Below, one piece after another: positions 1,429 through 23,739 of a DNA stretch of 34,853 nucleotides. The number at the start of each line of letters is the position of its first letter. The first letter of the stretch is position 1. Source of the DNA: a virus. The translations under genes were made by a program, and so were the position numbers. The notes beneath the pieces are model-generated. The model was not told the DNA's origin, made no database searches, and worked only from the letters and a program-made list of their open reading frames with translations. Where the stretch lies: the IMG/VR virus record IMGVR_UViG_3300028610_002683, positions 1 to 34,853 of that record. The stretch is one strand, 5' to 3'.

Positions 1429-1812
1429 ATGGCCGCTCACGTAGGTATGTTTTACGGATATAAGGGGTTTGTTTTCCCTGTTGGCGGACGCGTGCAGCTT
1501 CCTTTCTGGGAACTGGACGGGCGGATTCCAACCAGGAACCTCACGTACAGCGGAAACGCATTAGACGCATATCCGGCCATAACCACCTTTCCGCGACTGG
1601 AACAGAGCGAGGCGATCCTGATCCAGACCTGGGATAATAAGCTGATGTTTAAGCTATCAGCGGATGGCGTCAATTACGAAGATGAACAGGAAGTCGATCC
1701 TGATCTGAACCTGGGATCGTGGTTTCACAGAGTGACGGCGCGGGGCTTTGCTTTGGAGAATGAAAGCGCCGGCGCTGTAGCGCGTTATCAGTTAGTCGCG
1801 TTTTTCGTATAG
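1429..1812 (+). CDS. Small beta-rich virion-type protein, family of 32678
   Basis: Product of 127 residues with no recognised name. The start ATG has GAGG upstream. The C-terminal half ('LMFKLSADGVNY...', then 'ALENESAGAVARYQ') aligns by eye with the proteins at 32678-32962 ('LNIRLSNDGGTTY...', 'VQNKTAGSVSRYQ') and more weakly 30853-31236. The three therefore appear to share a small beta-rich domain ending in an 'xxN-x-[ST]AG-x-[VA]-x-RYQ' strand. Alternating hydrophobic residues and absence of helices suggest a beta-sandwich. All three sit in the rightward structural block, so a capsid decoration, spike or fibre-base role is likely. Confidence 0.7.
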   Translation: MAAHVGMFYGYKGFVFPVGGRVQLPFWELDGRIPTRNLTYSGNALDAYPAITTFPRLEQSEAILIQTWDNKLMFKLSADGVNYEDEQEVDPDLNLGSWFHRVTARGFALENESAGAVARYQLVAFFV

Positions 1813-5628: not shown

Positions 5629-6045
5629 ATGCCTACTAAAAGAGCGGTTGCATACAGCAGAGAGTCAGTCAAGAGGGCAGTAGAGGAGTATTTGGAGGAC
5701 GGCGAGGGTCTTAAAAGTCAACACGTCAGGAAGCCGGCAGGTCGAAGTTATCAATATTTTGAAGCACAGCAATACGGAGCGTATAATCTCGCGCAAAAGT
5801 TGGGCTTTGACTGTATGTGTACCCCGCACAGCGCCAAATCACCGGCGATCTGCAAATGCAAGATAAAGAAAAGCGGGATCAAGCAAGGCCATCAGATTTT
5901 GAGCGGTCTGGGGCGTGGCCCGTATGTTTTGGACGGTGCGGGATGCAGGGACGGTCAGGGGCTTTTTGTACCAATCGCACAATGTAAGGGGCCTGTAGGT
6001 CGCGATGAGGCCGGGAGATTCATTAGCATAAAGAGGGCGGCTTGA
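5629..6045 (+). CDS. Basic Cys-containing protein, unknown
   Basis: Product of 138 residues. The ATG follows AAAGGAGG. It is basic and contains a cluster 'CMCTPHSAKSPAICKCK' plus a later pair 'C-RDGQGLFVPIAQ-C-K'. This resembles the Cys pairs of other structural-block proteins; the first cluster could bind metal. The C-terminus ('GRDEAGRFISIKRAA') is basic. The Lys/Arg content and 'RESVKRAVEEYL' helix could suit nucleic-acid contact. The stop TGA overlaps the TTG start of the glycosyltransferase (TTGA), so the two are translated together. Function unknown. Confidence 0.65.
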   Translation: MPTKRAVAYSRESVKRAVEEYLEDGEGLKSQHVRKPAGRSYQYFEAQQYGAYNLAQKLGFDCMCTPHSAKSPAICKCKIKKSGIKQGHQILSGLGRGPYVLDGAGCRDGQGLFVPIAQCKGPVGRDEAGRFISIKRAA

Positions 6046-6764
6046 TCTTCGCATATCCAGAGCAAGAGACACCCTATAAAACAAACCCGGTCGCCTCTGT
6101 GATCCTGTGCGCTTATAATCACCTTAACGATCTGACGATCCCTTGTATCGAGAGCATCAGAGCTAATACTTTCTATCCCTACGAACTGATCCTCGTCGAT
6201 GATGGTTCCACAGATGGATCAATGCGCTATTTCAGGACGGTCTCAGAGAAAGCGATCCGCGTTCCAAGAGGGAGCGGAGCGGCAAGAGCAAGAAACGCCG
6301 GACTCGAGGCCGCCGCGGGCGATCCGCTAGTTGTCCTGGACAATGATACAATAGTACCCCCCGAATGGTTGACGATCCTCGTCCAGGAGGTGCAAAAACC
6401 CGGAGTCGGGATCGTGTCTGCTATCCCTTCGGATCAAGTGGATCGTCTGAACGGAAAGCGATCCCAAGATGGGCTTATCGAATACCAGAACGTTAGCGGA
6501 TTCTGTGCAGCGATAAGCCGTCAGTGTCTAAACGCTATAGGATACTTTGATGAAAGCCTCATCAGCGGAGAGGACACAGATTTTTGCTACAGAGCGAGGC
6601 AGCGAGGTTTTCGTATTGCTAACACGCCGCGGCTGATGGTTAAGTCCGGCGGAACGCGGCGGGAACTGGACAAACAGACCGAGAGGAGCGCGAGGCGGTT
6701 TATCCAGAAACACGCCGCCAGTAATCCCCATCTGCCAGCCGCGCCTCTCTATCCTTTTGGCTAA
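6042..6764 (+). CDS. Family 2 glycosyltransferase
   Basis: Product of 240 residues with a clear GT-A fold family 2 signature. It has an N-terminal 'ASVILCAYNHL' strand, 'VDDGSTDGS' (~53-60) that binds the nucleotide sugar, 'AARARNAGLEAA', and 'LDNDT' (~99-103) as the metal-binding DxD equivalent. 'GYFDESL...EDTDFCYRARQRGF' is the acceptor/ED motif. It transfers a sugar from a nucleotide donor; the acceptor is unknown. Start is TTG at 6042 overlapping the previous TGA, with GAGGGCGG upstream. It is the last gene of the rightward block. With two more glycosyltransferases on the minus strand, it may glycosylate virion proteins or alter host surface glycans. Family call is firm; substrate is not. 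Confidence 0.9.
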   Translation: MIFAYPEQETPYKTNPVASVILCAYNHLNDLTIPCIESIRANTFYPYELILVDDGSTDGSMRYFRTVSEKAIRVPRGSGAARARNAGLEAAAGDPLVVLDNDTIVPPEWLTILVQEVQKPGVGIVSAIPSDQVDRLNGKRSQDGLIEYQNVSGFCAAISRQCLNAIGYFDESLISGEDTDFCYRARQRGFRIANTPRLMVKSGGTRRELDKQTERSARRFIQKHAASNPHLPAAPLYPFG

Positions 6765-7040: not shown

Positions 7041-7146
7041 CTTAACGATTGTTATAGATTAGTTGATTTTTTGGGGAAATTGGACTGGCTCCACGCGAGG
7101 ATCGGGGCGGATCAGCGCGGATCTGGGAGGCGGGCTTAACGATTGT
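7041..7146. repeat. Direct repeat CTTAACGATTGT x2 with preceding GCGCGGATCTG
   Basis: CTTAACGATTGT occurs at 7041-7052 and 7135-7146 (94-base spacing). Each copy is preceded, 12-30 bases upstream, by GCGCGGATCTG. The paired composition of both copies suggests a duplicated protein-binding element or an iteron-like origin component rather than chance. Confidence 0.5.
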
Positions 7147-9715: not shown

Positions 9716-10234
9716 CTATAAGCGTGATGTATTCTCAGGAATTAGATCAAACGCTTGACAGACCTCAAAGCAGTCTATGTGTAGTCTTGCCTCTGTCTTG
9801 CTTTCCATATCGAAAAATCTGATCGCCGGGGCCTCATCCTCACGTATGACCTCCTCGCAATATGAGCATATACAGGCAGGATCGCCCGCGTCTGGGGAGT
9901 CCTCGAAAAACTTTAGCTTTGGTTCCTCATCGAAGCGAAGGCCCAGAGTATCCCCTAAGTAGTGCATTGCTTCCGTGACTGTTGAGGGGGCGTCCGGGGG
10001 CGGCGTCTTTGACACCAGCGACCCCAGCGCGATCATAAATGCAGCCTGATCGCGGATTGACGGATGCCGGGGCGTGTATTGCTCCTCTAATCTCACTATC
10101 AGCCTGTCGAATTGCGCTATATTGACCCGGATATTCTCACGCTCAAGAATTTCTAAAACGTCACGACGAAAGGCCCCGCTCCCTATCCGCCGCGCCCCCG
10201 GTTTTGCTCCCACGATCTTTAGTGTCCTTTTCAC
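9716..10234 (-). CDS. Unknown protein with zinc-finger-like Cys/His cluster
   Basis: Product of 172 residues with a GTG start that overlaps the previous stop (GTGA), preceded by GGAGGAGG. The basic N-terminus ('MKRTLKIVGAKPGARR') resembles a nucleic-acid contact. The C-terminal third carries 'C-I-C-SY-C' and 'LHIDC-FEV-C', a Cys/His set able to bind one zinc. The middle is helical. The tight coupling to the ribbon-helix-helix gene suggests they act in one process, perhaps regulation. Function unknown. Confidence 0.65.
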   Translation of the reverse strand: MKRTLKIVGAKPGARRIGSGAFRRDVLEILERENIRVNIAQFDRLIVRLEEQYTPRHPSIRDQAAFMIALGSLVSKTPPPDAPSTVTEAMHYLGDTLGLRFDEEPKLKFFEDSPDAGDPACICSYCEEVIREDEAPAIRFFDMESKTEARLHIDCFEVCQAFDLIPENTSRL

Positions 10235-10977
10235 GATCCTCCTCCCCGTAACTCTAAAGCCAGATCGACAGCGTTTCTAATAAATTCGCTTTTACTCTTG
10301 ACCTGCCCGGATTCCACCAGCTTATTGATCTGATCAACTACCTCCACTCTCAAGCGGACGCCAGCCGCGGATGTGGCCTTCGCGGGTTCCCGCTCCGTCC
10401 GCTTGTCCCGCGCTACATAGAAATATAGAACATGAGCGACAATGTAGAGGTTCACCGTTCCGCTGAGTAGCAACTCTTTGCCCGCCGTCAATTCGCATTT
10501 GACACCAAACCTACCGGGGATCGGTTCTAGCTTCAGCGGGATTGGTTCCCGGCGCAAGTAAGTGTCCGACCTCGCCAGCGACAACGCGATCCCCTCCTCT
10601 GACGGAAGGCTTAAAAGCGGGGCCTTAAGCAAGTCGACCTCCTTTCCACCGACCTCAAACACGGACAGGTTGAAAACCAGACTTGTTGTCAAAGCCCTAA
10701 CATCCTCAATCTTCGCGCCGGGAACGCTGATCCGGACTTCCTCAAGCGCCCACCAGCGCGCCAACGGGTCTGGTATGCGATATTCCTCGACAATGTTGGT
10801 ATATAGTAGCTCTCCGAGAGTATAGCCATAGAATTTCGGATCGCCAAAGCCACGGAGTACCTCGCCCTTTTTCATCGATCCCGCCTCAAAGCGGATCATA
10901 TAGTAGATCACGTCCCGGCGCGTTCCTTCGATCTTGTCGCCCTCGATCTCTTTTGATTCCGCAGAATAAACAATCAT
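10231..10977 (-). CDS. Capsid-like domain fused to ribbon-helix-helix DNA-binding domain
   Basis: Product of 248 residues. The C-terminal ~40 residues (206-245) read 'RLRVEVVDQINKLVESG...SKSEFIRNAVDLALEL', the classic strand-helix-helix of CopG/Arc-type repressors that bind DNA as dimers. The N-terminal ~190 residues are beta-rich. They share landmarks with the capsid candidate at 30142 and its homologue at 12388: 'RRDVIYYMIRF' near the start, a 'NLSVFEVGGKEV...PLLSLP' core, and a final 'LYIVAHVLYFYV' strand just before the linker. I infer a capsid-type or related beta-barrel protein fused to a DNA-binding tail, perhaps a regulator or a DNA-anchoring virion protein. The RHH call is firm; the homology is by eye. 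Confidence 0.7.
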   Translation of the reverse strand: MIVYSAESKEIEGDKIEGTRRDVIYYMIRFEAGSMKKGEVLRGFGDPKFYGYTLGELLYTNIVEEYRIPDPLARWWALEEVRISVPGAKIEDVRALTTSLVFNLSVFEVGGKEVDLLKAPLLSLPSEEGIALSLARSDTYLRREPIPLKLEPIPGRFGVKCELTAGKELLLSGTVNLYIVAHVLYFYVARDKRTEREPAKATSAAGVRLRVEVVDQINKLVESGQVKSKSEFIRNAVDLALELRGGGS

Positions 10978-11196
10978 TTATTTCTTCACCCCCGATCCTG
11001 GTATTATGATTGACGTTTTTCGATCCTCAAGACCATAATCACACAGAACATAAACGACCGCCCCGGACATTTCCATGCCTTGAAAACAATCGCAATGTTG
11101 ATCCGCTCCCTGGGAGCAGCTTTCGACTAAGATCGTCCTGTGTGCAGCCGGGCAGTTCGTTGTCTGCCCGTCTCTGCTAACTTCCAATCTATACAT
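10978..11196 (-). CDS. Small cysteine-rich protein, unknown
   Basis: Product of 72 residues. It contains six cysteines ('NCPAAHRTILVESC', 'QHCDCFQG', 'YVLCDYG'), suggesting a compact metal-bound or disulphide fold. Its ATG lies inside the last codons of the upstream gene (8-base overlap), and its stop is directly followed by the next ATG. It is part of one cistron string with the RHH fusion. No family recognised. Confidence 0.6.
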   Translation of the reverse strand: MYRLEVSRDGQTTNCPAAHRTILVESCSQGADQHCDCFQGMEMSGAVVYVLCDYGLEDRKTSIIIPGSGVKK

Positions 11197-11593
11197 CTAG
11201 ATCATCCTCTTCGTTTTCTTCGACTACTACTCCCTTGAACTCCATCGGCGCGGGGGTCTCAAAGCCCGCCGTGATCGCCCGTTCTACCCTCTCCAAAATG
11301 TCCTCTAGCCTTTTCGGTTTTTCCCGGTCGCCTCTCATTATACAGGTAATAAGCGCCTCGACTAGCTCAGACGCTTTCTCGTTTTCCATGAGCGTGAGAA
11401 TTGAGACCGCTGATCCCTTCTGGATATTCAGCGAAACGCCTACTAGCTGATCGTCGGGGATTTTTTCACCCAGCGCGAACGGCTTACTGAAAATCATCGC
11501 GGGATCAACTCGAATATTCACATCTTCCGCCCGCGCGTCTACCATTACATTAGTCACAAAAGGGAGAGGGAGCGGCGTTATATTGTCAGACAT
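11189..11593 (-). CDS. Unknown 134-aa beta-rich protein with acidic tail
   Basis: Product of 134 residues from MSDNITPL, whose ATG has AGGAGGG upstream. A longer in-frame reading from 11674 has no ribosome site. It has an N-terminal beta-rich part ('FVTNVMVDARAEDVNIRVDP', 'VGVSLNIQKGSAVSIL'), a helical part ('EKASELVEALITCIM', 'RLEDILERVERAI') and a strongly acidic tail ('VEENEEDDLDV'). Acidic tails of this type occur in DNA-mimic and inhibitor proteins as well as ssDNA-binding proteins. Nothing decisive is seen here. Confidence 0.6.
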   Translation of the reverse strand: MSDNITPLPLPFVTNVMVDARAEDVNIRVDPAMIFSKPFALGEKIPDDQLVGVSLNIQKGSAVSILTLMENEKASELVEALITCIMRGDREKPKRLEDILERVERAITAGFETPAPMEFKGVVVEENEEDDLDV

Positions 11594-11683
11594 TGGAACC
11601 CTCCTGATCTCAGTTATCCCCAAGTTATCCAGTGGGAGACTTTTTAGTGTATAAAAATTACTCAGTGGCTCCACGTCGATCCG

Positions 11684-12388
11684 CTATGCCGATAGCCACC
11701 AGTCCATAACATCTTGAGCAGTCTGCCAGGTGGTCTCTTTTCCCAATTCGCGCCGCCTCTCTAGCATCTTGTCAAACGCCCTCATATAAGCCCGATAAAA
11801 GCCCGGAAACATGGCCGCCTCCGCCTTGCGCGCCTTTACGCCCGCCATAGGACACATGGCACAGCCGATGCGCTTCTGATGCTTATAAAGGGAGCATACA
11901 GGGAGACCGTGATCATGCGTATACTCCCAGACCTCCGCCGTAGTCCAATCAAAGATCGGATGCACAAAGGTCTTGAGTTTGTATCTGTGGCACGTTTCCA
12001 CATAATACCGTTGACTCCGGGCGTGGCTTTCCTGTTTGCGTATTCCCGTTAAGACCCGGCGGTCATATCCGCCGCGCTCTTTCAGGTATTCACAGCAGTA
12101 TCTAATTTTCCTGGTTGGAGGGATACCCTTCTTCACTATTAACTTCCACATGGTAGTCTCTGGCTTTTCTATCTTAACGTCTGGGTAGTTATCCCTCAAG
12201 TGATCGATTACTGGACGCGGGTCAACTGAGGTCTTGTTAAAATGAGCGTCAAACTTGACGCCTGATCGCAGAAGCAGATCATATACTACCCCGCTTCACT
12301 TACCGCCAGAGATAGCGGCGTAATATCCCTCCTCCGGGCAAAACATCTGTATACGCTCTATAGCTGTTTGTATCTTCGCCTCGTGCAT
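11684..12388 (-). pseudogene. PAPS reductase-family (CysH-like) gene interrupted by TGA in the PP-loop
   Basis: Reading from the ATG at 12388 (which shares its A with the upstream stop, TAATG), 234 codons give a full-length PAPS-reductase / ATP-PPase-family protein except for one in-frame TGA at codon 31 (12296-12298). Landmarks are 'RIQMFCPEEGYY', 'AISGGK-TGA-SGVVYDLL', 'SGVKFDAHFN', 'TTMWKLIVKKGIPPT', 'IRYCCEYLKERGG', 'VLTGIRKQES' and 'KRIGCAMCPMAG' (paired Cys for an Fe-S cluster or disulphide). The TGA stands exactly where the SGGKDS motif has its Asp. Everything after it is intact; a TTG at 12199 could restart but would lack the ATP-binding loop. So this is either a broken gene, a sequence error or a recoded codon. 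Family enzymes activate substrates by adenylation in sulphur metabolism or nucleic-acid modification. Confidence 0.85.
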
Positions 12389-13017
12389 TAACTAAGCGGC
12401 TTCTGTGTTATAGTGTGCAGAACAACGTAAAGGCCAAAAGGCTTGAGGCCGTACAGCTTTTTATCAAGATCAATGTAGCCGTCTATATGATGCGATTCTG
12501 GCAGAAATTCAGGAATTGCGATCGCGCTGATCTTCCTGATAGTCCATTTGGCAACCTCCTTAAAGTCGCCGCTTACATTTGTGGCGATCTGTGTCTCAAG
12601 CGCAAGCCGCGCCAGCGGATCATTTTCTCTTGCGGTCATTTCACCGAATAGATTGACAGCGAAAAAGGAGAGCGGTTCTGATATAAACTCCTCGCCGTCA
12701 ATCAATATCGTTAAATGTCCAGATTGCAGCGCGGTCATTAGGTCAATCAGAAAAGTATGTTTTTCTGGCCGCGCTACAAGAGAGACCCGATAGATTAGTG
12801 TCTCATGTGCGACCGGTGTCATACGCTCCCTTGTAAAATTCGTCCACTCTTTGTCGCCTATATGCCCACAGAATAGACCAATAGTTGCGTTCGCGTCTAC
12901 CTCTTGTGGGATCGTTATCCGGTAATAGTATGACTTCATACACCACTCTCTAAACTCCCGCACTCCCACGCCCGGAATATCAACAGATCCGGGCGCTAAT
13001 GGTTTTTGTTTTCTCAT
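12388..13017 (-). CDS. Capsid-candidate homologue in the leftward block
   Basis: Product of 209 residues. It aligns by eye along its length with the structural candidate at 30142-30801: 'PG-x3-I-x-GVGVR-x-F' near the start, 'Y-x-R' a little later, 'IYRVSL' versus 'IYRINV', 'LTILIDGEEF...PLSFFA' versus 'FEMVLDDDN...PVVVFP', and the last residues 'YVVLHTITQKPL' versus 'YVILDVLMTRPL'. The pattern is all-beta. Start overlaps the upstream stop (ATGA) with GGAGGCG before it. It may be a second capsid or vertex protein made from the other operon, or a decoy/regulatory derivative. Confidence 0.7.
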   Translation of the reverse strand: MRKQKPLAPGSVDIPGVGVREFREWCMKSYYYRITIPQEVDANATIGLFCGHIGDKEWTNFTRERMTPVAHETLIYRVSLVARPEKHTFLIDLMTALQSGHLTILIDGEEFISEPLSFFAVNLFGEMTARENDPLARLALETQIATNVSGDFKEVAKWTIRKISAIAIPEFLPESHHIDGYIDLDKKLYGLKPFGLYVVLHTITQKPLS

Positions 13018-13592
13018 TCTTCGCCTCCATCACCAGCGGTCGCGGTCCGAAAATCCGACAACTCCGCGGCATATCCACAGTCAATGCACTTTGCTACTAC
13101 GGCCTCATGTTCAGTGAATGTTATAATGCCATCGGATGAACAGCCACACTCAGGGCAGACTAGCCCGGAGTTATCATCAGAAGAAATGCCGATCTCCCGC
13201 TCCGCCAGTTTATCCGCCTCGTCCTCTAATCCATTGACTATGTGGATCGCAAGCATAGCGGCGGCGTCCCTGTTTTCGATCAGTTCCGGATTCCACATTG
13301 TCTCAGAACTTTGGATCAGATTCGTTATCATGTGGATCAATTCTTCTCTGTTGGCGCAAATACCCCGACCGCTTTCTGTTTCTGTTACCTCTGCCATTTC
13401 TACCTCAACCTCCTCGTAGCTTACTATGTGTGTCATAACGTATGCGATTAGACCCCCGGCGATAGCTTCCTCGGAACCCGCCCTCAAGAGAGCGATAAAC
13501 CCATACGCCGCCTCTCTACTTCCCGCCTCAAAGTAAAGACCCTCCTCGTCAAGTCCGATCTCTACCTGAGTTTTTCCGATCCGTCCGTTCAT
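13014..13592 (-). CDS. Unknown protein with C-terminal zinc ribbon
   Basis: Product of 192 residues. The C-terminal ~60 residues include 'C-PE-C-G-C' and 'C-ID-C-GY', a standard C-x2-C ... C-x2-C zinc ribbon. The N-terminal 130 residues are acidic and helical ('VSYEEVEVEMAEVTETE', 'LIHMITNLIQ', 'AAMLAIHIVNGLEDEADKLAE'). ATGA overlaps link it to both neighbours, with AAAGGGGG before the ATG. The zinc ribbon suggests contact with transcription or other nucleic-acid machinery. No enzyme signature is seen. Confidence 0.65.
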   Translation of the reverse strand: MNGRIGKTQVEIGLDEEGLYFEAGSREAAYGFIALLRAGSEEAIAGGLIAYVMTHIVSYEEVEVEMAEVTETESGRGICANREELIHMITNLIQSSETMWNPELIENRDAAAMLAIHIVNGLEDEADKLAEREIGISSDDNSGLVCPECGCSSDGIITFTEHEAVVAKCIDCGYAAELSDFRTATAGDGGEE

Positions 13593-14050
13593 TCTGCCCC
13601 CTTTGCCATGCTATCACTTAGCAAAGCTATATGATTTCCTGTCCTTCCTTTTCCTCGTTTCCGTCGAGCAGACCAACCATCCATGTCGAACCTGCTAAAA
13701 ACAAGCACCTTATCATCCAAAGAAACGAGATCATACAATTCTTCTACGTCCTCATTATACATTGCTACACATCCCAACGTGGATCGCTCTCCTATTCCTT
13801 CGGATTTGCCTATACCGTGTATTGCCAATTTTCGGTATGATCCTGCCGGATACCTGTTTTTGGACTCTGCCTGTGGATGGAAATAGATGCACCGAGTTCC
13901 CACCTCGTCAGACGCAACAGGATCGCATTTTTTCGCATAGATAGGAAACAAGCCAGTAGGCGTTGGACATGCCAAAATCCCTATCCCGATGGGATATATC
14001 GTCCCATTATAATACAACCGAAATGTGTCCTTGTTGACAAGTATATCCAT
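13589..14050 (-). CDS. L,D-transpeptidase (YkuD family)
   Basis: Product of 153 residues. 'TPTG-x-F-P-I' (~30-37) and the catalytic motif 'IHG...ERSTLGCVAM' place His78 and the nucleophile Cys94 as in YkuD-fold L,D-transpeptidases. These form 3-3 cross-links or attach proteins to peptidoglycan through a Cys thioester. There is no signal peptide, so export is unexplained; it might act with host export, on internal peptidoglycan precursors, or in reverse as an endopeptidase. The last residues are basic. Its stop overlaps the next ATG (ATGA). Family confidence is high. The role, whether host wall modification during infection or lysis, is inference. Confidence 0.85.
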   Translation of the reverse strand: MDILVNKDTFRLYYNGTIYPIGIGILACPTPTGLFPIYAKKCDPVASDEVGTRCIYFHPQAESKNRYPAGSYRKLAIHGIGKSEGIGERSTLGCVAMYNEDVEELYDLVSLDDKVLVFSRFDMDGWSARRKRGKGRTGNHIALLSDSMAKGAE

Positions 14051-14094
14051 TTTCTCAATGCCTCAAAATGCCCGATAATAGTTTTTACGCGACC

Positions 14095-14355
14095 TTAGTA
14101 TAATATTCCCGCAGACATTCGAGCGAATGTGTCTATCTTTACGTGCAGCTCCGGCCTTGCTGATGCGAAGCCCACAATAGAAAACAATGCTTTCCTTATT
14201 TCTTCATCAGGAATTATCTCTGCTAGAGCCTCAACAGCCTCCTCTCCGATCTGGCCCCTATAGTCGATCCGCGTGATGAACCATAGCAAGATGATTTTTT
14301 TCTCTTTTGTGGCTTCCGAAGTAAGAACCCTCTGGGGATCGCCTTTCTGTAACAT
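14095..14355 (-). CDS. Unknown 86-aa protein
   Basis: Product of 86 residues; ATG preceded by GAGGAGGG. It is mainly helical ('EEAVEALAEIIPDEEIRKALFSIVGFASARPELHVKIDTF' read in pieces) with a basic N-terminus. No cysteine, membrane helix or known motif. It lies 20 bases after the small membrane protein gene at 14376-14555, so both are probably on one transcript. Function unknown. Confidence 0.6.
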   Translation of the reverse strand: MLQKGDPQRVLTSEATKEKKIILLWFITRIDYRGQIGEEAVEALAEIIPDEEIRKALFSIVGFASARPELHVKIDTFARMSAGILY

Positions 14356-14375
14356 CTATTTTTCCCTCCTCATCG

Positions 14376-14555
14376 TTATATATGCCTATCTTCCACCTTG
14401 TCAAGAAACGCGGCGATCTTGTACCAACAGAGCGTACCAAAAAGAGCAACCGCAAGGCGAAATATCGAAAATTGCACATAGGTCGCAAGAATATAGACCA
14501 TAATCAGCCAAATACCGAAAAAAGACCATCGGATTCCATAAGTTCGACCTTCCAT
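14376..14555 (-). CDS. 59-aa two-helix membrane protein
   Basis: A 59-residue reading frame starting MEGRTYGIRW with a strong AAAAGGGGGG site nine bases before the ATG. The ATG is at 14555 and TAA at 14376-14378. Two hydrophobic stretches are separated by almost no loop: ~10-27 ('WSFFGIWLIMVYILATYV') and ~30-48 ('FSIFRLAVALFGTLCWYK'). A charged 'DKVEDRHI' end follows. Size and topology resemble small phage holins or host-membrane effectors. Codon use and the strong ribosome site support a real gene; the plus-strand frame over the same bases lacks one. Confidence 0.65.
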   Translation of the reverse strand: MEGRTYGIRWSFFGIWLIMVYILATYVQFSIFRLAVALFGTLCWYKIAAFLDKVEDRHI

Positions 14556-14591
14556 AATTCCCCCCTTTTAGTAATGCCCCATAATAGAGTG

Positions 14592-14753
14592 TTATGCAGA
14601 CCAATTCGGACGGACGGGGCGCGCAGGAACCGACCGCCTCATGCGAGTCGGGGCGCGGGAATACAACCGATTATGCCCGGCCGCCCGTTGGTCTGCAAAA
14701 ATTATCTGCCAGAATATGCCAGAAAAACAGCGTTTTCTCAAAAAATCCGGCAT
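14592..14753 (-). CDS. Possible 53-aa basic protein
   Basis: An ATG at 14753 has GGGGAGGG four bases upstream and opens 53 codons: hydrophobic-basic N-terminus ('MPDFLRKRCFSGIFWQIIFA') and Arg/Pro-rich C-terminus. It lies in an otherwise low-coding stretch. The frame also contains a 10-base inverted repeat, so the bases may instead serve as a structured RNA or DNA element. Weakly supported. Confidence 0.3.
   Translation of the reverse strand: MPDFLRKRCFSGIFWQIIFADQRAAGHNRLYSRAPTRMRRSVPARPVRPNWSA
14595..14697. repeat. Widely spaced 10-bp inverted repeat in a low-coding gap
   Basis: TGCAGACCAA (14595-14604) and TTGGTCTGCA (14688-14697) are perfect complements 83 bases apart. The span between is rich in CGG/CCG runs that could fold further. 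It lies within 14556-14994, the least gene-like part of the leftward block. It could be the stem of a structured RNA or a DNA element. Confidence 0.4.
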
Positions 14754-14815
14754 AAAACCCTCCCCATCACCGGCATTTTTTGCACGTTCCTGCATAAATA
14801 CACCACTTTTTTTCG

Positions 14816-15064
14816 CTAAGCGCGGCTGAGCAGCTCGCGGATCTCCCCCGAATCACCGAAAACCACCAGAAGCAGCTCGTAAAATTTCCAGACCCGCGAA
14901 GACACATAAAGCCGCGTATAGTCTGCGTTTATCCCAGAGTGCAGAAAATCACGTTTTCGCGATCTGAAATTTGCCTGTGACGTGCCAGAAAAAACTACTC
15001 CGACCCTTCCTGCATCCCGATCATGAAAGTGTGCTCGCTGTGGAGAAAAAGGTCTCTCTTCCAC
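14816..15064 (-). CDS. Possible 82-aa protein or gene remnant overlapping its neighbour
   Basis: An open frame of 82 codons whose first 23 overlap the gene at 14995-15300 in another phase. The non-overlapping part reads like real protein ('RLYVSSRVWKFYELLLVVFG' then 'DSGEIRELLSRA'), but the only ATG (15064) has no ribosome site. It might be reached by frameshift from the upstream gene, be the degraded end of an older gene, or be chance. Low confidence. Confidence 0.3.
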   Translation of the reverse strand: MEERPFSPQRAHFHDRDAGRVGVVFSGTSQANFRSRKRDFLHSGINADYTRLYVSSRVWKFYELLLVVFGDSGEIRELLSRA

Positions 15065-15300
15065 AGCTTGACAATATAGACACCATTACCGTATTTATTC
15101 CGTATTGTTTCCAGAAATTCCGGGTCTGACAGCACGTCCGCAACTACCATGTCTCTTACTAAGTCCTCGCGCTCGACCCCGGTCTGCGCGTCTATGGCGC
15201 TTGTACACCTCATTATGGATACGCTTTGGTGTCCATCCTTCTGTACCTCTTCAAGAGCAGACCTAAACGGCATAAGTTCCTCATTTGTTATCCACTTCAT
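14995..15300 (-). CDS. Unknown 101-aa protein
   Basis: Product of 101 residues, ATG after AAAGGAG. Mixed alpha/beta and charged: 'ALEEVQKDGHQSVSIMRC', 'VADVLSDPEFLETIRNKYG', then beta 'GVYIVKLWKRDLFLHSEH'. Not recognised. It is the last tightly packed gene before the 440-base low-coding stretch that contains uncertain frames and an inverted repeat. Confidence 0.6.
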   Translation of the reverse strand: MKWITNEELMPFRSALEEVQKDGHQSVSIMRCTSAIDAQTGVEREDLVRDMVVADVLSDPEFLETIRNKYGNGVYIVKLWKRDLFLHSEHTFMIGMQEGSE

Positions 15301-15315
15301 TTCACAACTCCTTTT

Positions 15316-15573
15316 TCATGTTTTCTTTCGCTCAAAACCTGCAAATAATTGCCATATCTCAATTTTATAGATCGTAGGATCATCATAGAGGCGTTGATAA
15401 ACTTGCGACATTTCCGATCCGTCCATAGGATCGCCCGGCGGATGATCTGTTAGATCAAATTCCTGTTCCCCGTATGGTTTGTATGGACTGGCATACCGGG
15501 AACTCCAATATATGAGTTTATACATGACCGGCGGCTTATACGGTTTTATGTCCATGCCCCCTTTACTACTCAT
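15316..15573 (-). CDS. Unknown 85-aa protein
   Basis: Product of 85 residues. The first ATG overlaps the previous stop (ATGA). A second in-frame ATG six codons later has AGGGGG just upstream and is an alternative start (MDIKPYK). Rich in Tyr and Pro ('YSSRYASPYKPYGEQEFD' in part), likely a small beta-containing soluble protein. No motif recognised. Confidence 0.55.
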   Translation of the reverse strand: MSSKGGMDIKPYKPPVMYKLIYWSSRYASPYKPYGEQEFDLTDHPPGDPMDGSEMSQVYQRLYDDPTIYKIEIWQLFAGFERKKT

Positions 15574-15845
15574 AGGTTAAGCTCTTTGACGCGCTTCTTA
15601 ATTCTCTCAATATTCTTGTCGATCCATTCCATCCGCGCCCCCGGTCGGTCTGACATTTGGTAATGCTGTACTGTTCCCTCAATCGTGACCGAGAACTCCC
15701 GATCCATCTGGTTCTGAGTGAAAGCGACTGTCTGATCCTCGCCCCGGTAAAACATAATAGGATAAGTCACGCTCTTATTATCAAACGTAGTCAAGAGTTT
15801 TCTGATCCGTTTCAACTCTGCCCTGTCCTGGATTTTTAACATCAT
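15570..15845 (-). CDS. Unknown 91-aa protein
   Basis: Product of 91 residues; start ATG overlaps the upstream TGA (ATGATG). It has an N-terminal basic helix ('AELKRIRKLLTTF'), a central beta-hairpin region ('SVTYPIMFYRGED', 'FSVTIEGTVQHYQ') and a C-terminal basic helix ('KNIERIKKRVKEL'). No recognised family. It belongs to the overlapping cistron run 17324 to 15316. Confidence 0.6.
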   Translation of the reverse strand: MMLKIQDRAELKRIRKLLTTFDNKSVTYPIMFYRGEDQTVAFTQNQMDREFSVTIEGTVQHYQMSDRPGARMEWIDKNIERIKKRVKELNL

Positions 15846-16066
15846 AGTACCGCCTCATTTTCTGGTCTGAACTCCTCAAGGATGATCTGCATGACGATCA
15901 TTAATGGCAGATCAAGTGCCTCGCGAATCTGCCCGGTGGAGTGACCTGCTGTGACCATCTCCACGACTTCCCCACGTTTCGCGCGTGGAACCTTTGACGC
16001 TTCGATGATCCAGTTGTCCATGATCTCTTTAGCGATCTCCTCTGCGCTTCTGAGTGGCTTATCCAT
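15842..16066 (-). CDS. Small helix-turn-helix-like protein
   Basis: Product of 74 residues from the ATG inside GATGGATAA at the end of the upstream gene; a longer frame to 16111 would overlap that gene heavily. Residues ~30-60 ('KRGEVVEMVTAGHSTGQIREALDLP') have the spacing of a helix-turn-helix of the kind used by small phage regulators: a helix, 'GHST' turn and 'GQIREALDL' recognition helix. The acidic C-terminus follows. Probably a transcription regulator of the early block, though this is based on pattern only. Confidence 0.6.
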   Translation of the reverse strand: MDKPLRSAEEIAKEIMDNWIIEASKVPRAKRGEVVEMVTAGHSTGQIREALDLPLMIVMQIILEEFRPENEAVL

Positions 16067-17324
16067 CTTCTGAGATGATCGTTTCGTCCAGGACGTGCCT
16101 TTCCTCGACACCTTCTATATACCTGATCCTGATGGGGTGTTTTGGGAGGTTTGGGCCTATTGTGACGCCCTCTATTTTTAGGGTCAGTATATCTAGCGCG
16201 ATTGCCATGCCAGATCGACAGCCTTTCACCCATTGATCGCCATAATAATACGATCCGGCCGCCGTGTCCGTCCGGGTATTAAAAAGGTGATCAAGTGCTT
16301 TCAAGTAGACTGCAATGTTGCTATTACCTACCTCCTTTATCACTTCGAGGAGGCTAACGCGCTCCTCTAGCAATTTCATTTGTCCAGGAGTTACCTCAGC
16401 CGGTGACTCCTCTTCCTTTTGCTCTGCCTCTGCCTCTGGCACAGGATCATGATGGACACAGGCATAAATACCAATAACTGCATACATATCCTGTTCCCGT
16501 ATCTGTACTATCTCCCTTCTCACTTCGCACATGTCATTATAAAAGCCTTGCTCCTCATAATCCGCCCCGCAAGCGTCTTTTTTTGCATGATGCACCCGGA
16601 GCCACAGCCAACCCTCAGACCGTACATAGGCCGGCGGGCAGGACAGTTCCGAGTCGTTCGCGGCTATCTCCGTCACGTCTCTATATATCCGCCAGTCTCC
16701 CCACATGTGGCGCTTCTTTTCCCTGGTCATGAGTTCCTGCGCAGCCTCATGATCTTCTAGCTTCTCACTTGTCCAGTATATAGACATACCCCCGCGATTC
16801 TTCAAGAGATTATAGCATACTATAAACGGGGGCATGACCGCCTCATATTCTAACTTCCTTATCAGGGCCATAACAGCATTGCGATCCAGGACAGACCCAA
16901 TATGTAGCTCACCAGGTTTTCCCGTGACTTTCACCCTCTGAGTTACCTTCGTGATCTTGTGATAAATACCCCATTGCTCCCACTTAACCTCGTATTCGCC
17001 ATACAATTCAAGCGCGGGGAGGAATACATTAGTTGAAAAATCATCATGGATGCAGATCGGCGGGTTGTAATCCGGGGTAAATGATTCGCCTCCGTCCTCT
17101 AGATGCTTTTTCAGATCGGAAATGAGGCTTTCAGCCTCTTCTCTGGTGTAAGCGTTGTGTTTCCCCTCTTCCTTTAGCTCCTTTACTCTGATGTGATCAT
17201 AACAGGTTATCCCATACAGAATCGTGTTAGGTTCATTCGTGCTGAGTGCGTAACCTATTGACAAGCACCATTTCACAAGGAACATATAAACGTCTTTCTC
17301 AATCCAGATGACGGGATCATACAC
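16059..17324 (-). CDS. Unknown 421-aa protein, first gene after the leftward promoter
   Basis: Product of 421 residues; the only start is GTG at 17324, seven bases after AGGAGA. It is mixed alpha/beta with scattered Trp, Tyr and Cys and no long hydrophobic stretch. Three parts can be seen: residues 1-150, a middle part to ~300 with 'MWGDWRIYRDV' and 'YGEYEVKWEQWGIYHKI', and an acidic linker ('EAEAEQKEEESPAE') to a C-terminal ~110-residue domain. No nucleotide-binding or nuclease motif is recognised. As the first and largest product of the early operon it is a prime candidate for takeover or replication work, but I cannot name a function. Confidence 0.65.
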   Translation of the reverse strand: MYDPVIWIEKDVYMFLVKWCLSIGYALSTNEPNTILYGITCYDHIRVKELKEEGKHNAYTREEAESLISDLKKHLEDGGESFTPDYNPPICIHDDFSTNVFLPALELYGEYEVKWEQWGIYHKITKVTQRVKVTGKPGELHIGSVLDRNAVMALIRKLEYEAVMPPFIVCYNLLKNRGGMSIYWTSEKLEDHEAAQELMTREKKRHMWGDWRIYRDVTEIAANDSELSCPPAYVRSEGWLWLRVHHAKKDACGADYEEQGFYNDMCEVRREIVQIREQDMYAVIGIYACVHHDPVPEAEAEQKEEESPAEVTPGQMKLLEERVSLLEVIKEVGNSNIAVYLKALDHLFNTRTDTAAGSYYYGDQWVKGCRSGMAIALDILTLKIEGVTIGPNLPKHPIRIRYIEGVEERHVLDETIISEDG

Positions 17325-17362
17325 AGTTTTATCTCCTTTCGTCTTTGTAGTGTCCAGACGAA

Positions 17363-17378
17363 GAGGTCAGACGACCTC
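17363..17378. promoter_or_regulatory. Perfect inverted repeat (operator-like) in the leftward leader
   Basis: GAGGTC-agac-GACCTC is a perfect 6-base inverted repeat with a 4-base spacer, about 20-35 bases downstream of the expected leftward start point. Size and position fit a repressor operator, or a leader hairpin. Confidence 0.5.
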
Positions 17379-17379
17379 A

Positions 17380-17396
17380 AAGTCAACTTGTTTTCC
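17380..17396. promoter_or_regulatory. Shared 17-bp site at +1 of the leftward promoter
   Basis: AAGTCAACTTGTTTTCC here matches 21088-21104 (AAGTCAACGTGTTTTCC) at 16 of 17 bases. In both places it begins at about +1 of a predicted promoter, in opposite orientation relative to the genome but the same place relative to transcription. A common regulator binding both regions is the simple reading. Confidence 0.5.
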
Positions 17397-17403
17397 TGTG
17401 TGG

Positions 17404-17432
17404 AGTATAACAAATTCAGCTATGAAAGTCAA
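17404..17432 (-). promoter_or_regulatory. Sigma70-type leftward promoter
   Basis: On the minus strand: TTGACT (17432-17427), 17-base spacer, TATACT (17409-17404). Both boxes differ from consensus by one base. It drives the 16059-17324 gene and the overlapped genes after it; expected start near 17397. Confidence 0.8.
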
Positions 17433-17469
17433 GTGTTAAACACCTGCCTGCTATAAAATGAAAAAGTGC

Positions 17470-17498
17470 TTGCAAAAGACGACAGATCGTGTTATAGT
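17470..17498 (+). promoter_or_regulatory. Rightward promoter of the lipoprotein gene
   Basis: TTGCAA (17470-17475), 17-base spacer, TATAGT (17493-17498), 55 bases before the lipoprotein ATG. The -35 box is weaker than consensus. It lies back to back with the leftward promoter. Confidence 0.65.
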
Positions 17499-17553
17499 TG
17501 CAACCGTCTTTATACGCGCCAAATTTGCTTGAATACAAAAAAGGAGAGTTATC

Positions 17554-17877
17554 ATGGGAATACGGAAAACATTTCTTGTAGTCGTTACATTCCTGGTCTG
17601 TTTGGTAGTTCTTTCGGGCTGTGGTTTATTTCGCAGGCCAGAAATTAGGAGACTAGAAAAGCAAGTTGAGACATTAGAGGCACAGGTTGATAGTTTGCTA
17701 ACAACCGGCATTGAGGATAATTGGGTTGAGGGCGTCATGGTCATGAGGCGGGCGTCTGCCTCCCATTTGGTACGGGTCTGGGTCTACGTGGATGGATTCT
17801 TGACTCCAATGTGGGAGGACGATCTGAATCACATGATAGAGACGGGCTTTTACATTAAAGTCACGCACCGCCCGTAA
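17554..17877 (+). CDS. Small lipoprotein with coiled coil
   Basis: Product of 107 residues. A basic start (MGIRKT), a hydrophobic run and 'VLSGC' form a clear lipoprotein signal with Cys23 as the lipid-modified residue. A heptad-type coil follows ('RRLEKQVETLEAQVDSLL'), then a ~60-residue beta-containing domain ('LVRVWVYVDGFL'). ATG follows AAAGGAGAG. It is a single plus-strand gene with its own promoter, set between leftward genes, the usual arrangement of a 'moron' expressed independently. Phage lipoproteins often block superinfection or act as outer-membrane spanin parts. Either is possible; the lipobox is certain. Confidence 0.85.
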   Translation: MGIRKTFLVVVTFLVCLVVLSGCGLFRRPEIRRLEKQVETLEAQVDSLLTTGIEDNWVEGVMVMRRASASHLVRVWVYVDGFLTPMWEDDLNHMIETGFYIKVTHRP

Positions 17878-17886
17878 TCGGAAATG

Positions 17887-19161
17887 CTATTTTCCCAGAC
17901 CACCCAGAAATTCAGCGCGGGCCTTGTTAGCGGCGTTGGGATTCTGCTCCCTGTAAGTTTTCCACTTTTCCAACTCTTCATCGCGCTCCGCATTTTCGCG
18001 CTGCGTTTTTTCGATTGCGCGGCGGGCTTTTTCGCGGGCTTTCTTCACCTCGCCGTCAAGCTTTGCCGGCTGGTAATCTCTGGTGAGGGCGTTTCGTAAC
18101 CAGCCGAGGGGGTTCGCAAATTCGACGCTGCGGCGTTTCTGCATTTCCGCGATCTCCATTTTCTCCAATACGACCTCCGCTCCGTATGCGTCAACAGTCC
18201 ACCGTACAAAGGCATAGTCCCGATCCTCCATTCCGAAATTCTGAGATTTTGCAAAGGAACAAACAGCGCCGAAGGCCTCTTTTTTTTTGGCTTTGCTCTT
18301 TGTTTGTTCTTGTTTAAACCCGGGAACTAAGACAAGACTCTCATTAGCGCGTGAGGGGTCGTCTGTCAGACCACCCTTGATTTCACTGGCTTTGTCTGCA
18401 TTTTCGTTTTCAGAAATTTGTGAGCTGGTGTCAGAAGTCGGATCGGGCGTCTGGTGATCCGTTACTGGCATGAGGGCGCTTTCGTATTGAAAATCTCTTG
18501 AGCTGGTTTCTGGTTCTGGATCGGGGGCCTGGTAATGAGGTTCTACAGTGTCGGAGTCGGGCGTCTGAGGAACCTCCTCGCCGTCAGTGATGGCAGCAGC
18601 AGTAGTGTCATAGATGTTCGTATCGGCTGGTGGCAGTCCCAGTTCTTCACGCCAACGCTTTACAGTGTCGGCGTCGGGCGTCTGAGGAACCTCCTCATCG
18701 TCAGTGACGGTAGCAGCATTTTCTATTGATTGGGGCTGGCAGGTGGACTCCGTGGGGAGGGATATTATTTTCGCGGGCTTATCTTCGAGCGTTGTACCAT
18801 TCTTGCTTTCTTTGAGGCGCGCTCTCTCCTGGGGGTCAATCACGATCCTCAGATTGCTTGTATCCAGACCGTTACCTCCGCTTAATAGCTCAATATATCC
18901 GTTTGCTATTAGCCAGGTGCGGGCGCGACTAACGTCAGAGCGTGATCCACTTACGAAGGCCTCCATGTGTTCCACGGAAACATCAGCGTTGTCTTTATGA
19001 TACCCGGAGGTCTTTCTCTCGATCAGAAACACTATCAGCGCGGCGGTCTTTCCCTGTTGGCATAGCTCTGTAACTTCTGGGATGATCACGTCAAAAATCT
19101 CATTGCGGGCTTTTGTGTAGTAAAGAAATTGCTCAACTCCGGCTGTTCCGAGTCCAGTCAT
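17887..19161 (-). CDS. Replication-initiator-like protein (winged helix plus DnaD-like end)
   Basis: Product of 424 residues from the ATG with GGGGAGGATTCTAAA upstream. The N-terminal ~95 residues resemble the winged-helix start of phage O-type replication proteins ('LIVFLIERKTSGYHKDN', 'SVEHMEAFV', 'SRSDVSRARTWLIANGYI'). A long disordered linker (~120-260) holds repeats of 'EEVPQTPD[AS]DTV'. The C-terminal ~130 residues ('FANPLGWLRNALTRDYQP' and a basic coiled tail) resemble the end of DnaD/initiator proteins. Such proteins bind the origin and load a host helicase. This is the only replication-type gene I see, so the virus would depend on host polymerase and helicase. Inference from pattern, moderately sure. 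Confidence 0.6.
   Translation of the reverse strand: MTGLGTAGVEQFLYYTKARNEIFDVIIPEVTELCQQGKTAALIVFLIERKTSGYHKDNADVSVEHMEAFVSGSRSDVSRARTWLIANGYIELLSGGNGLDTSNLRIVIDPQERARLKESKNGTTLEDKPAKIISLPTESTCQPQSIENAATVTDDEEVPQTPDADTVKRWREELGLPPADTNIYDTTAAAITDGEEVPQTPDSDTVEPHYQAPDPEPETSSRDFQYESALMPVTDHQTPDPTSDTSSQISENENADKASEIKGGLTDDPSRANESLVLVPGFKQEQTKSKAKKKEAFGAVCSFAKSQNFGMEDRDYAFVRWTVDAYGAEVVLEKMEIAEMQKRRSVEFANPLGWLRNALTRDYQPAKLDGEVKKAREKARRAIEKTQRENAERDEELEKWKTYREQNPNAANKARAEFLGGLGK
18543..18720. repeat. In-gene direct repeat of ~60 bp, two copies
   Basis: Two nearly identical ~60-base segments (about 18543-18602 and 18661-18720) share ACAGTGTCGG then GTCGGGCGTCTGAGGAACCT and 'CGTCAGTGA'. They encode the repeated 'EEVPQTPDxDTV' units in the linker of the initiator-like protein. 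Shorter copies ('GTCTGG') follow. Likely a slippage-expanded flexible linker. Confidence 0.7.
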
Positions 19162-19162
19162 T

Positions 19163-20005
19163 TTAGAATCCTCCCCTAATGCCTCCGTGTGTTTCACGGA
19201 GACCTGTCTTATAGTTGTTGTTCAGTAGGTAGCCTTTTCCTGAGCATGTCAGAAAATGAGTTACATCCATGAGGCCGAACTTGCAATGCTCTATCCCCCC
19301 CGCCTTTCTTATATTAGACTGAGCTTCTATGCCGGTGTACATCTCTTCCTGTCCCATTGAGAGGTGTGAATAATCGTGATTCTGGTGAACAGCAATAGCA
19401 AAATTACCTATATCGATCACTGGTATCCTGATATCGCGCGCGTGATAGATCATCCAGTTATCCCAACAAGCGCGTCCTACCGCAAATGAGGGAATGTCAT
19501 AGAACAGTTGTCGAGGGAATACAAAATAGTCCATGGCATACATCCAAATCTCATAAGGGTTTGATTTTTCAGATTCCATCGCGTAGGTTCTGACCTGCTC
19601 TTCCCAGGCATCTTTGTCGAAGTCGAAAAGCTGATCCATATCGACATTCCATCTTCGACCAACTATTAAGTATCTCCCCATCTTCCTGTCAACTATTCTA
19701 ATCGCCCTCATAAAATCACTCATCAGGATTATATCCGCGTTCACATAGCACAGAATATTACGCTCTGCCAAGTCGTGTGCAGTTCTAAAGACATAATCAA
19801 GCATCGGCGTCCCGAACTCGTTACGTTTCACATCGGGAACATGCTGCACCTCAAGCTGTTCTGCTGTCTGGGCAATGCCTTCCTCGTCACCGAACAAAAT
19901 CACCTGACACCATGGTTGGAGCTTCACCCAACTACGAATAGCGTTTGTTTGGATGGTCTTAACGTGTCCTTTGAACGGCTTTGGAATGGTGAATAGAGTA
20001 ATCAT
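19163..20005 (-). CDS. Glycosyltransferase (GT-A type)
   Basis: Product of 280 residues from MITLFTIPKPF, the usual start of this family. It continues with 'NAIRSW', 'VILFGDEEG', and 'NEFGTPMLDYVF'. 'CYVNADIIL' (~86-94) places Asp91 at the metal/nucleotide-sugar site, and 'FDFD' and 'MYAMDYFVFPR' appear further on. These are features of GT2-like enzymes that transfer a sugar from a nucleotide donor. The natural ATG has only a weak ribosome site; a GTG four codons earlier is possible. The strong site (GGGAAG) just upstream belongs to an ATG in another frame that yields only 20 codons. Acceptor unknown. Confidence 0.8.
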   Translation of the reverse strand: MITLFTIPKPFKGHVKTIQTNAIRSWVKLQPWCQVILFGDEEGIAQTAEQLEVQHVPDVKRNEFGTPMLDYVFRTAHDLAERNILCYVNADIILMSDFMRAIRIVDRKMGRYLIVGRRWNVDMDQLFDFDKDAWEEQVRTYAMESEKSNPYEIWMYAMDYFVFPRQLFYDIPSFAVGRACWDNWMIYHARDIRIPVIDIGNFAIAVHQNHDYSHLSMGQEEMYTGIEAQSNIRKAGGIEHCKFGLMDVTHFLTCSGKGYLLNNNYKTGLRETHGGIRGGF

Positions 20006-20023
20006 GGTCCGGTCCACTTTCGG

Positions 20024-20281
20024 TCATTTTAGAATTCTTCCCACCAGGAACCCGGCGATAAAGAACGCCCCGGCAATAGTGATTGTGGCAGTCCGGTCAG
20101 ATGATAACATCTGACGGCAGCGATCCACTCCAAATATATCTATACAGCTATCGTATCCGCGCAAATAGCCCTTGACGCTGTTGGATGCTCCCACGGAGGC
20201 CATCTGTCTGCACTCCTCTGGACTTCTGACGCGCTTACACTGATCATAAGTCCTTAAAATTTGCTGTGTCCAGCTTGTCAT
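20024..20281 (-). CDS. Tail-anchored protein with two Cys-pair motifs
   Basis: Product of 85 residues. It holds two copies of Y-D-x-C-x(5-8)-[ED]-x-C-R-Q-M: 'YDQCKRVRSPEECRQM' and 'YDSCIDIFGVDRCRQML'. A C-terminal membrane helix follows ('TITIAGAFFIAGFLVGRILK'). The same motif plus C-terminal helix occurs in 27006-27278 ('YSTCESMLGEEECRRML'), so an early-side and a late-side gene are related. GGAGGCGAGG precedes the ATG. Probably a virion or host-membrane protein with disulphide-linked helices. Confidence 0.7.
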   Translation of the reverse strand: MTSWTQQILRTYDQCKRVRSPEECRQMASVGASNSVKGYLRGYDSCIDIFGVDRCRQMLSSDRTATITIAGAFFIAGFLVGRILK

Positions 20282-20283
20282 TA

Positions 20284-20985
20284 TTAGCCTCGCCTCCGGT
20301 GATAGTTAAGCGCGTTCTGATAGTTTTGCCGGGAAAACGTATCATCAGGATCAGTCAGGACGCGCCGCCTCAATATTTCGAGGTTTCTGGCGTTCTTTGC
20401 TGCAACCTCGCTCTCATTCCAGTAGCCGGAATGTTCTATGCGAAGGTCAGTTACCTCCGTCTGGACTCCGATCCTTTGCAAACTGAGGAGGTTTTGCTCA
20501 TGCAAAGGTATCTCCCACACAACGCCCGGCAACAGTGGGAAAATGCGTACCTGGGGAACCAGAGTAAAACTACCATCCTTCGAGGGCGACCCTTGCCACA
20601 AATAGAACGCTTTGAGGCGCGGCGCAGTCATTAAGGACACGATCCGCGCTGCAACGTCCCGTCTGATCCATTCGTCCGTGTCCATCCACAACACGTATAC
20701 CATGACTCCCAGGTGCGCGGCATACTCACGCGTCACAGAGAGCGCGATATTTCGCTGATACGCAAAATCGTTTCTCCACGCGCTTGTCACAACGCGACAG
20801 CCGTACTCATTAGCCACGTCATACAAGGATTTTCCTGCACTCCCGTCAAAAACAACGACGATCAAATCTGAAACAAGGGCGGCGCTCTGAATCATCCGCC
20901 GGAACCTTGAGACCCGGCATTTGCCGGCGATCACGTTGCACACCAACGGCACACGGAAGGCATCAGGATTTTTACTGACGATCAT
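20284..20985 (-). CDS. Family 2-like glycosyltransferase
   Basis: Product of 233 residues. The pattern 'SWRNDFAYQRN'-like ('SAWRNDFAYQRNIAL'), 'YVLWMDTDEWI' (Asp102, Asp104 as DxD), and 'FEARFFP'-equivalent 'PQVRIFPLLPGVVWEIPLHE' is typical of family 2 enzymes related to SunS and lipopolysaccharide-type transferases. It starts a leftward operon behind the promoter at 21014-21041 (GAGGG before ATG) and is followed by 20024 with a 2-base gap. It probably works with 19163 in building a short glycan. Target, whether capsid proteins or host surface, is unknown. Confidence 0.85.
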   Translation of the reverse strand: MIVSKNPDAFRVPLVCNVIAGKCRVSRFRRMIQSAALVSDLIVVVFDGSAGKSLYDVANEYGCRVVTSAWRNDFAYQRNIALSVTREYAAHLGVMVYVLWMDTDEWIRRDVAARIVSLMTAPRLKAFYLWQGSPSKDGSFTLVPQVRIFPLLPGVVWEIPLHEQNLLSLQRIGVQTEVTDLRIEHSGYWNESEVAAKNARNLEILRRRVLTDPDDTFSRQNYQNALNYHRRRG

Positions 20986-21013
20986 TGTCTAATCCCTCCC
21001 TCGTACACTAAAG

Positions 21014-21041
21014 ATCATACCTCGATTTTCCGAAAAGTCAA
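21014..21041 (-). promoter_or_regulatory. Leftward sigma70-type promoter
   Basis: On the minus strand: TTGACT (21041-21036), 16-base spacer, TATGAT (21019-21014), 28 bases before the ATG at 20985. One mismatch in each box. The -35 sits inside GTCAAC-N9-GTTGAC, whose other arm is the -35 of a rightward promoter. Confidence 0.7.
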
Positions 21042-21052
21042 CAAAAATCGCG

Positions 21053-21081
21053 TTGACAAAAACCGGAGGTGCTGTTACACT
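21053..21081 (+). promoter_or_regulatory. Rightward promoter P1
   Basis: TTGACA (21053-21058), 17-base spacer, TACACT (21076-21081). Perfect -35, weaker -10. Transcription would start at ~21088, exactly at the shared 17-bp site, and probably ends at the terminator at 21240-21276 unless read through. Confidence 0.6.
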
Positions 21082-21087
21082 ACCTGG

Positions 21088-21104
21088 AAGTCAACGTGTT
21101 TTCC
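21088..21104. promoter_or_regulatory. Shared 17-bp site at +1 of rightward P1
   Basis: AAGTCAACGTGTTTTCC, 16 of 17 identical to 17380-17396. It overlaps the expected start of P1. A related AAGTCAAC also lies at 21035-21042. Likely operator for a phage or host regulator. Confidence 0.5.
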
Positions 21105-21182
21105 GAACTAGACCGCCGCGCGCCTCTATCGTGCATTACCGCACTGTCACTGGTAGGAAGAGGGGGCGCGCTTATTTATTTC

Positions 21183-21211
21183 TTGACAAATATCATACAT
21201 TGTGGTAAAGT
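21183..21211 (+). promoter_or_regulatory. Rightward promoter P2 (small RNA promoter)
   Basis: TTGACA (21183-21188), 17-base spacer, TAAAGT (21206-21211), with transcription expected from ~21218. It directly precedes two hairpins and a terminator and no open frame, as for a small RNA gene. Confidence 0.6.
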
Positions 21212-21217
21212 ATCTGT

Positions 21218-21284
21218 GGCTGTTCCGAAGGGAACGCAGAACCCCGGCAGGGTCATCTTTTGCCTTTGCCGGGGTTTTGTTATT
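21218..21284 (+). ncRNA. Probable ~65-nt small RNA
   Basis: Between promoter P2 and a T-run lies a short transcript made of two hairpins: GTTCC-gaag-GGAAC (21222-21235) and the 10-bp GC-rich terminator stem (21240-21276). There is no start codon with a ribosome site. It could act as an antisense or regulatory RNA (compare the short terminated OOP RNA of lambda), or be an attenuated leader of the genes that follow. The genes downstream have their own promoter P3, which favours an independent RNA. Confidence 0.55.
21240..21276 (+). terminator. Intrinsic terminator
   Basis: AACCCCGGCA (21240-21249) pairs perfectly with TGCCGGGGTT (21267-21276), followed by TTTTGTTATTTT. Good GC stem and T-run on the plus strand. 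Confidence 0.85.
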
Positions 21285-21308
21285 TTGCCCTCCGCCCTCG
21301 TTATTTTC

Positions 21309-21337
21309 TTGACTTGACTCCCCTCCTGTGCTATATT
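21309..21337 (+). promoter_or_regulatory. Rightward promoter P3 of the late block
   Basis: TTGACT (21309-21314), 17-base spacer, TATATT (21332-21337), one mismatch in each box. Start near 21344, giving an ~89-base leader to the HTH gene at 21433. Confidence 0.75.
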
Positions 21338-21397
21338 ACAAGCAAAGACCTACCAGCGAAGGAAATACACAGCGACAAGACAAAGAATTTGCAGAGC

Positions 21398-21430
21398 AGA
21401 TTTAACGCAGGTTTAATATAGGTTTAATAT
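21398..21430. repeat. Three 11-bp tandem repeats before the HTH gene
   Basis: AGATTTAACGC, AGGTTTAATAT, AGGTTTAATAT lie head to tail directly before the ATG at 21433; the last two are identical. Helical-turn spacing (11 bp) suggests cooperative binding sites, possibly for the HTH protein encoded next. They also replace a normal ribosome site. Confidence 0.55.
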
Positions 21431-21432
21431 AC

Positions 21433-23627: not shown

Positions 23628-23657
23628 CACAAATTGATTCAGGACAACTAGACAAGG

Positions 23658-23698: not shown

Positions 23699-23739
23699 CG
23701 CTCTTAGCGTTCGCGGCTTCCCCGTAACGGGGGGTAGTG

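Follow-up and report, generated by a model that had tools for sequence, protein, structure and literature searches.

A full-length paralogue of a probable shell protein, and a probable remote relative fused to a ribbon-helix-helix domain, in the minus-strand operon of a barely sampled virus

The minus-strand, early-type operon of the IMG/VR virus record IMGVR_UViG_3300028610_002683, whose 34,853 bases constitute the window analysed here, encodes two proteins that point back to a single protein of the plus-strand, late-type operon, 30142 (genes are named by their first coordinate; the labels "early-type" and "late-type" are inferred from strand and gene content). The first, 12388, is by its profile similarity a real, full-length paralogue of 30142, and the second, 10231, combines a region that is probably related to 30142 with a ribbon-helix-helix (RHH) tail. 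The explanation preferred here, tentatively and at a little short of even confidence, treats 12388 as a diverged additional copy of 30142, itself probably a shell subunit, and 10231 as, most likely, a copy that has diverged further and acquired an RHH domain; the former would then be an accessory protein of the shell or of its assembly, and the latter a DNA-binding regulator. The features concerned are the following:

9716–10234, minus strand: conserved gene downstream of 10231, its start overlapping the 10231 stop by 4 nt
10231–10977, minus strand: 248-aa protein with a 30142-like region and a ribbon-helix-helix tail
10252–10359, minus strand: RHH_1 (CopG-type) DNA-binding domain from Pfam, residues 207–242 of 10231
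10402–10977, minus strand: residues 1–192 of 10231, a probable remote relative of 30142 by end-to-end profile z
10978–11196, minus strand: conserved gene upstream of 10231, which it abuts
12388–13017, minus strand: paralogue of 30142 over its full length (209 aa), encoded in the operon on the opposite strand
12919–12993, minus strand: N-terminal segment PG...IPGVGVREF...YYYR of 12388, its most 30142-like part
13014–13592, minus strand: gene upstream of 12388, with a 4-nt overlap, the start of 12388 (13017) lying within its stop
21014–21081, no strand assigned: back-to-back promoter-like sites between divergent operons, with the inverted repeat GTCAAC-N9-GTTGAC
30142–30801, plus strand: reference member of the family, a late structural-module protein and probable capsid subunit by its orthologues and position

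Both minus-strand genes that an earlier note on this DNA had placed between 10231 and 13017 are present at those coordinates and on that strand as frame-scored coding sequence, in a tight arrangement in which neighbours overlap or abut. The window was compared with two related records, G1 (IMGVR_UViG_3300028835_001661, 35,552 bases) and G2 (IMGVR_UViG_3300024432_000937, 33,901 bases). One gene match spans the ends of the window record (34531–34853 together with 29–1066), and the matches of window positions 1429–1812 and 27694–28350 are divided between both record ends of G1 and of G2, respectively, so that all three records are circularly permuted. The plus-strand late-type module is common to the window, G1 and G2, and the minus-strand operon is far more variable. 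Elsewhere, the window encodes two family-2 glycosyltransferases and one L,D-transpeptidase (YkuD) domain protein (6042–6764, 20284–20985 and 13589–14050); three GCGCGGATCTG-like 11-mers with 10-nt spacing lie between converging operons at 7095–7125, with a fourth copy at 7010; and an ARAGORN tRNA-Ser call at 25314–25408 (minus strand), within the PT-repeat part of ORF 23737, is probably spurious.

The gene that follows 12388 is PAPS-reductase-like (11684–12388, minus strand), and the idea that 12388 interrupts a PAPS reductase gene was rejected, because this gene has its own ATG start, which overlaps the 12388 stop. An in-frame TGA at 12296–12298 occupies exactly the Asp position of its SGGKDS motif; since TGA and the Asp codons are unlike at all three bases, more than one substitution is implied. 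A broken gene, a sequence error and selenocysteine are each possible, and no convincing hairpin was seen.

The reference protein 30142 is a probable capsid or shell subunit, a designation based on strong conservation, late-module position and a gene order parallel to that of Salisaeta icosahedral phage 1 (SSIP-1). Its orthologues in both relatives are ~75% identical, and its gene stands between that of a membrane protein (29413) and beta-type/SLT transglycosylase genes. The same module holds tandem paralogues at 27694–28350 and 28383–29048 (plus strand), 65–81% identical to their G1 and G2 relatives, as another conserved candidate for an abundant virion protein. No significant similarity of 30142 to any known capsid protein was found, SSIP-1 gp45 and gp46 included; the capsid proteins of P23-77 and FLiP gave no signal, and sequence searches of Pfam, PHROGs, NCBIfam and PDB returned nothing except the RHH domain. 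AlphaFold2 produced no usable fold (pLDDT 35.7 for 10231 alone and 37.0 for 30142 with a four-sequence alignment), and Foldseek, run with the pLDDT-37.0 model of 30142, gave no match at E ≤ 0.001, only noise. Searches for more relatives in IMG/VR and in phage and plasmid records (all three proteins), as well as in GTDB genomes (30142), yielded only the two viruses that carry a 30142 orthologue and nothing for either 12388 or 10231; the virus group is barely sampled.

SSIP-1 is a tailless membrane phage with a circular genome and two major capsid protein types (PMC6356626). The window virus resembles it in its circular genome, in a transglutaminase-like protein (gp34 of SSIP-1, annotated as structural, matches window 23028–23627, plus strand, at 5.2e-12) that represents the only significant gene common to both, and in a similar order of membrane protein, beta-type proteins and SLT enzyme, in which the place of 30142 resembles that of gp45/gp46; gp44–gp48 of SSIP-1 are annotated as structural proteins. 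The two differ in that SSIP-1 has an ATPase gene (gp40) and none was seen in the window, and in that gp45 and gp46, paralogous to each other at z 9.5, are adjacent there, whereas the window copies lie in the opposite operon. Neither gp45 nor gp46 is significantly similar to 30142 (z −0.45 and 0.36, respectively) or to 12388 (1.7 and 0.86). To 10231, gp46 is weakly similar (z ~2.8–2.9, and 1.6 for gp45); 10231 ranks first among ~170 ORFs against gp46, although the z is low, and pairwise BLAST gives 0.001. A second comparison is offered by the vertical single beta-barrel viruses P23-77, SH1 and HHIV-2, which carry two single-barrel-type shell proteins per virion (PMC5332951, PMC4958249). The likeness lies in the idea of two shell proteins in one virion; the differences are that VP16 and VP17 of P23-77 have no sequence similarity to the window proteins, that no packaging ATPase was found in the window, and that 12388 has no detectable orthologue in the relatives.

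The relationship of 12388 to 30142 is solid. In a one-genome search 30142 matches 12388 at E 2.2e-6; a hmmsearch profile built from 30142 and its two orthologues matches it at E 1.1e-5, with 0 of 5000 shuffles scoring as high; and the end-to-end z is 8.4–9.8 under four scoring schemes. Profile-profile alignment, which the earlier note had proposed against shuffled sequences, sets 12388 clearly apart (hhalign score 36.5, the best of 150 shuffles reaching 19.8) but does not do so for 10231. Membership of 12388 in the 30142 family is established by significant similarity over the full length, the alignment extending from PG...GVGVR.F through the C-terminal YV.L...PL. Identity is highest in the N-terminal 26 columns (11/26, or 42%) and is ~19–27% in the remaining blocks; the same N-terminal stretch is identical at 26–27 of 27 positions among the three 30142 orthologues. 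Overall, 12388 is 25, 26 and 24% identical to the three orthologues and is therefore approximately equidistant from them, so that it probably branched off before they diverged. No orthologue of 12388 is detectable in G1 or G2, and its origin may be either an ancient duplication followed by losses or a transfer from an unsampled relative.

The ordered landmarks by which the earlier note had linked the three proteins survive in part. GVGVR.F is found in 30142 and 12388 as described, and the "D[IV]IY or YYYR" element is likewise present, in the former version in 30142 and 10231 and in the latter in 12388; the literal core pattern [VI]D[DG].....P[VL], however, occurs in none of the three, and the final [LY]YV.L strand matches literally in 12388 but not in 30142 or 10231.

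The RHH tail of 10231, also noticed earlier, is real as judged by its score, which reaches 23 bits against RHH_1 (PF01402) in Pfam and 26.1 bits in the genome search, with a curated cut-off of 20.5. This tail is the point of likeness to the RHH_1 / CopG-Arc-MetJ regulators, from which 10231 differs in that its RHH is attached to a 192-residue region probably related to a virion-module protein. Homology of residues 1–192 to 30142 is held with a confidence of roughly two in three. Against the 30142 family the end-to-end profile z is 4.8–5.2, with 0 of 1000 shuffles and 0 of 300 local shuffles as good, and the two halves each contribute (z 3.8 and 3.0). In the same test no other ORF of the three viruses, 12388 aside, exceeds z 2.5 (167 tests in all), and the maximum among 181 unrelated ORFs from other phage records, including JN126049 (Salmonella phage), is 2.6; z ~5 for 10231 thus compares with a maximum of 2.6 over 346 other tests. 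This margin, together with the scoring of both halves, argues against the somewhat unlikely alternative that residues 1–192 are unrelated to 30142, that 10231 is a conventional RHH regulator whose N-terminal domain has another origin, and that 12388 is the sole true paralogue. Such an alternative would nevertheless agree with the local and HMM methods, which give nothing (369 of 5000 shuffles as good by HMMER and 11 of 150 by hhalign), with a z of only 1.6 under PAM250 (4.1 under BLOSUM62), with the literal motifs, which mostly fail, and with the spurious z of 4.5–4.8 that arose in single-sequence pairwise scans, whose scores were dropped as too noisy. Between 10231 and 12388 there is no direct similarity (z ~0.4–1). 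The kinship claimed for the three proteins is firm for 12388 and only probable for 10231. A further member was considered in G1 (23557–24402, plus strand, 281 aa), in an early-type operon and with a strand pattern resembling that of 10231, and was dropped at a non-significant z of 2.4.

G1 and G2 lack the 10231 gene; in both, the homologues of 10978 and 9716 abut directly, without 10231 between them. Because no orthologue of 12388 or of 10231 is detectable in the two relatives, both genes look accessory rather than essential, and this distribution argues against an essential shell or genome-anchor role. In G1, a separate RHH gene adjoins the homologues of the conserved pair 10978/9716, which is consistent with a regulatory slot.

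According to the preferred explanation, 12388 has kept the N-terminal segment whose sequence hardly varies among the 30142 orthologues; by virtue of this segment it can probably still dock to the partner of 30142, and it would act as an accessory subunit that belongs to the shell or modulates its assembly. In 10231, which does not have the N-terminal segment invariant in 30142, loss of that segment and gain of the RHH domain would most likely have produced a dimeric, DNA-binding protein that regulates its own operon and the divergent late operon and is built on a shell-type domain that may serve oligomerisation or the sensing of shell protein. The tightly packed, overlapping genes and the paired promoter-like sites between the operons speak for this reading. 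Those sites, at 21014–21081, would be the candidate operator for such a regulator and are a natural place to look.

Alternatively, 10231 could be a virion or assembly protein, its 30142-like part joining the shell and its RHH tail holding viral DNA, such that the genome is tethered without a recognisable packaging ATPase. The domain make-up of 10231 would suit this role, and a Walker A motif scan of ORFs of at least 60 aa in the three genomes, whose records may be incomplete, gave no convincing hit, so that neither a terminase nor a packaging ATPase nor a helicase was recognisable; FLiP is likewise without an annotated ATPase. Tethering is nonetheless distinctly unlikely, given that the gene is missing from both relatives, though both have the late module and are equally devoid of a recognisable ATPase, and given that 10231 sits in the opposite operon and is without the invariant segment. 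Slightly less likely again, finally, is a role of 12388 and 10231 as interference factors, early-made shell look-alikes that would poison assembly in related viruses that compete or superinfect; the accessory, lineage-specific and shell-related nature of the two genes and their early-type operon would suit it, but the RHH tail would have no obvious place in it.

RHH regulators and two-protein shells are both already known, and the novelty probably lies in the combination of a shell-type domain and an RHH domain in one protein, the shell half of the fusion being only probable. No precedent for this combination was found in a limited search of open-access literature that was only partly aimed at it. 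Capsid folds have taken on other tasks elsewhere, as in the movement proteins of plant viruses (PMC10306228), and a shell-type domain joined to RHH in a phage, if true, would add a new example; the present sequences suggest, and do not prove, that shell proteins acquired a second use here. In its fullest form, the scenario is one of a tailless phage whose shell protein was duplicated twice into the early operon, one copy becoming a DNA-binding fusion of shell fold and RHH through which either gene expression would respond to the state of shell assembly or the genome would be tethered to the shell, and as a whole it is considered unlikely. The finding brings into view a virus group that is barely sampled and has no recognisable packaging ATPase, and in which a shell/RHH fusion, if true, could connect virion assembly with transcription or with genome capture.
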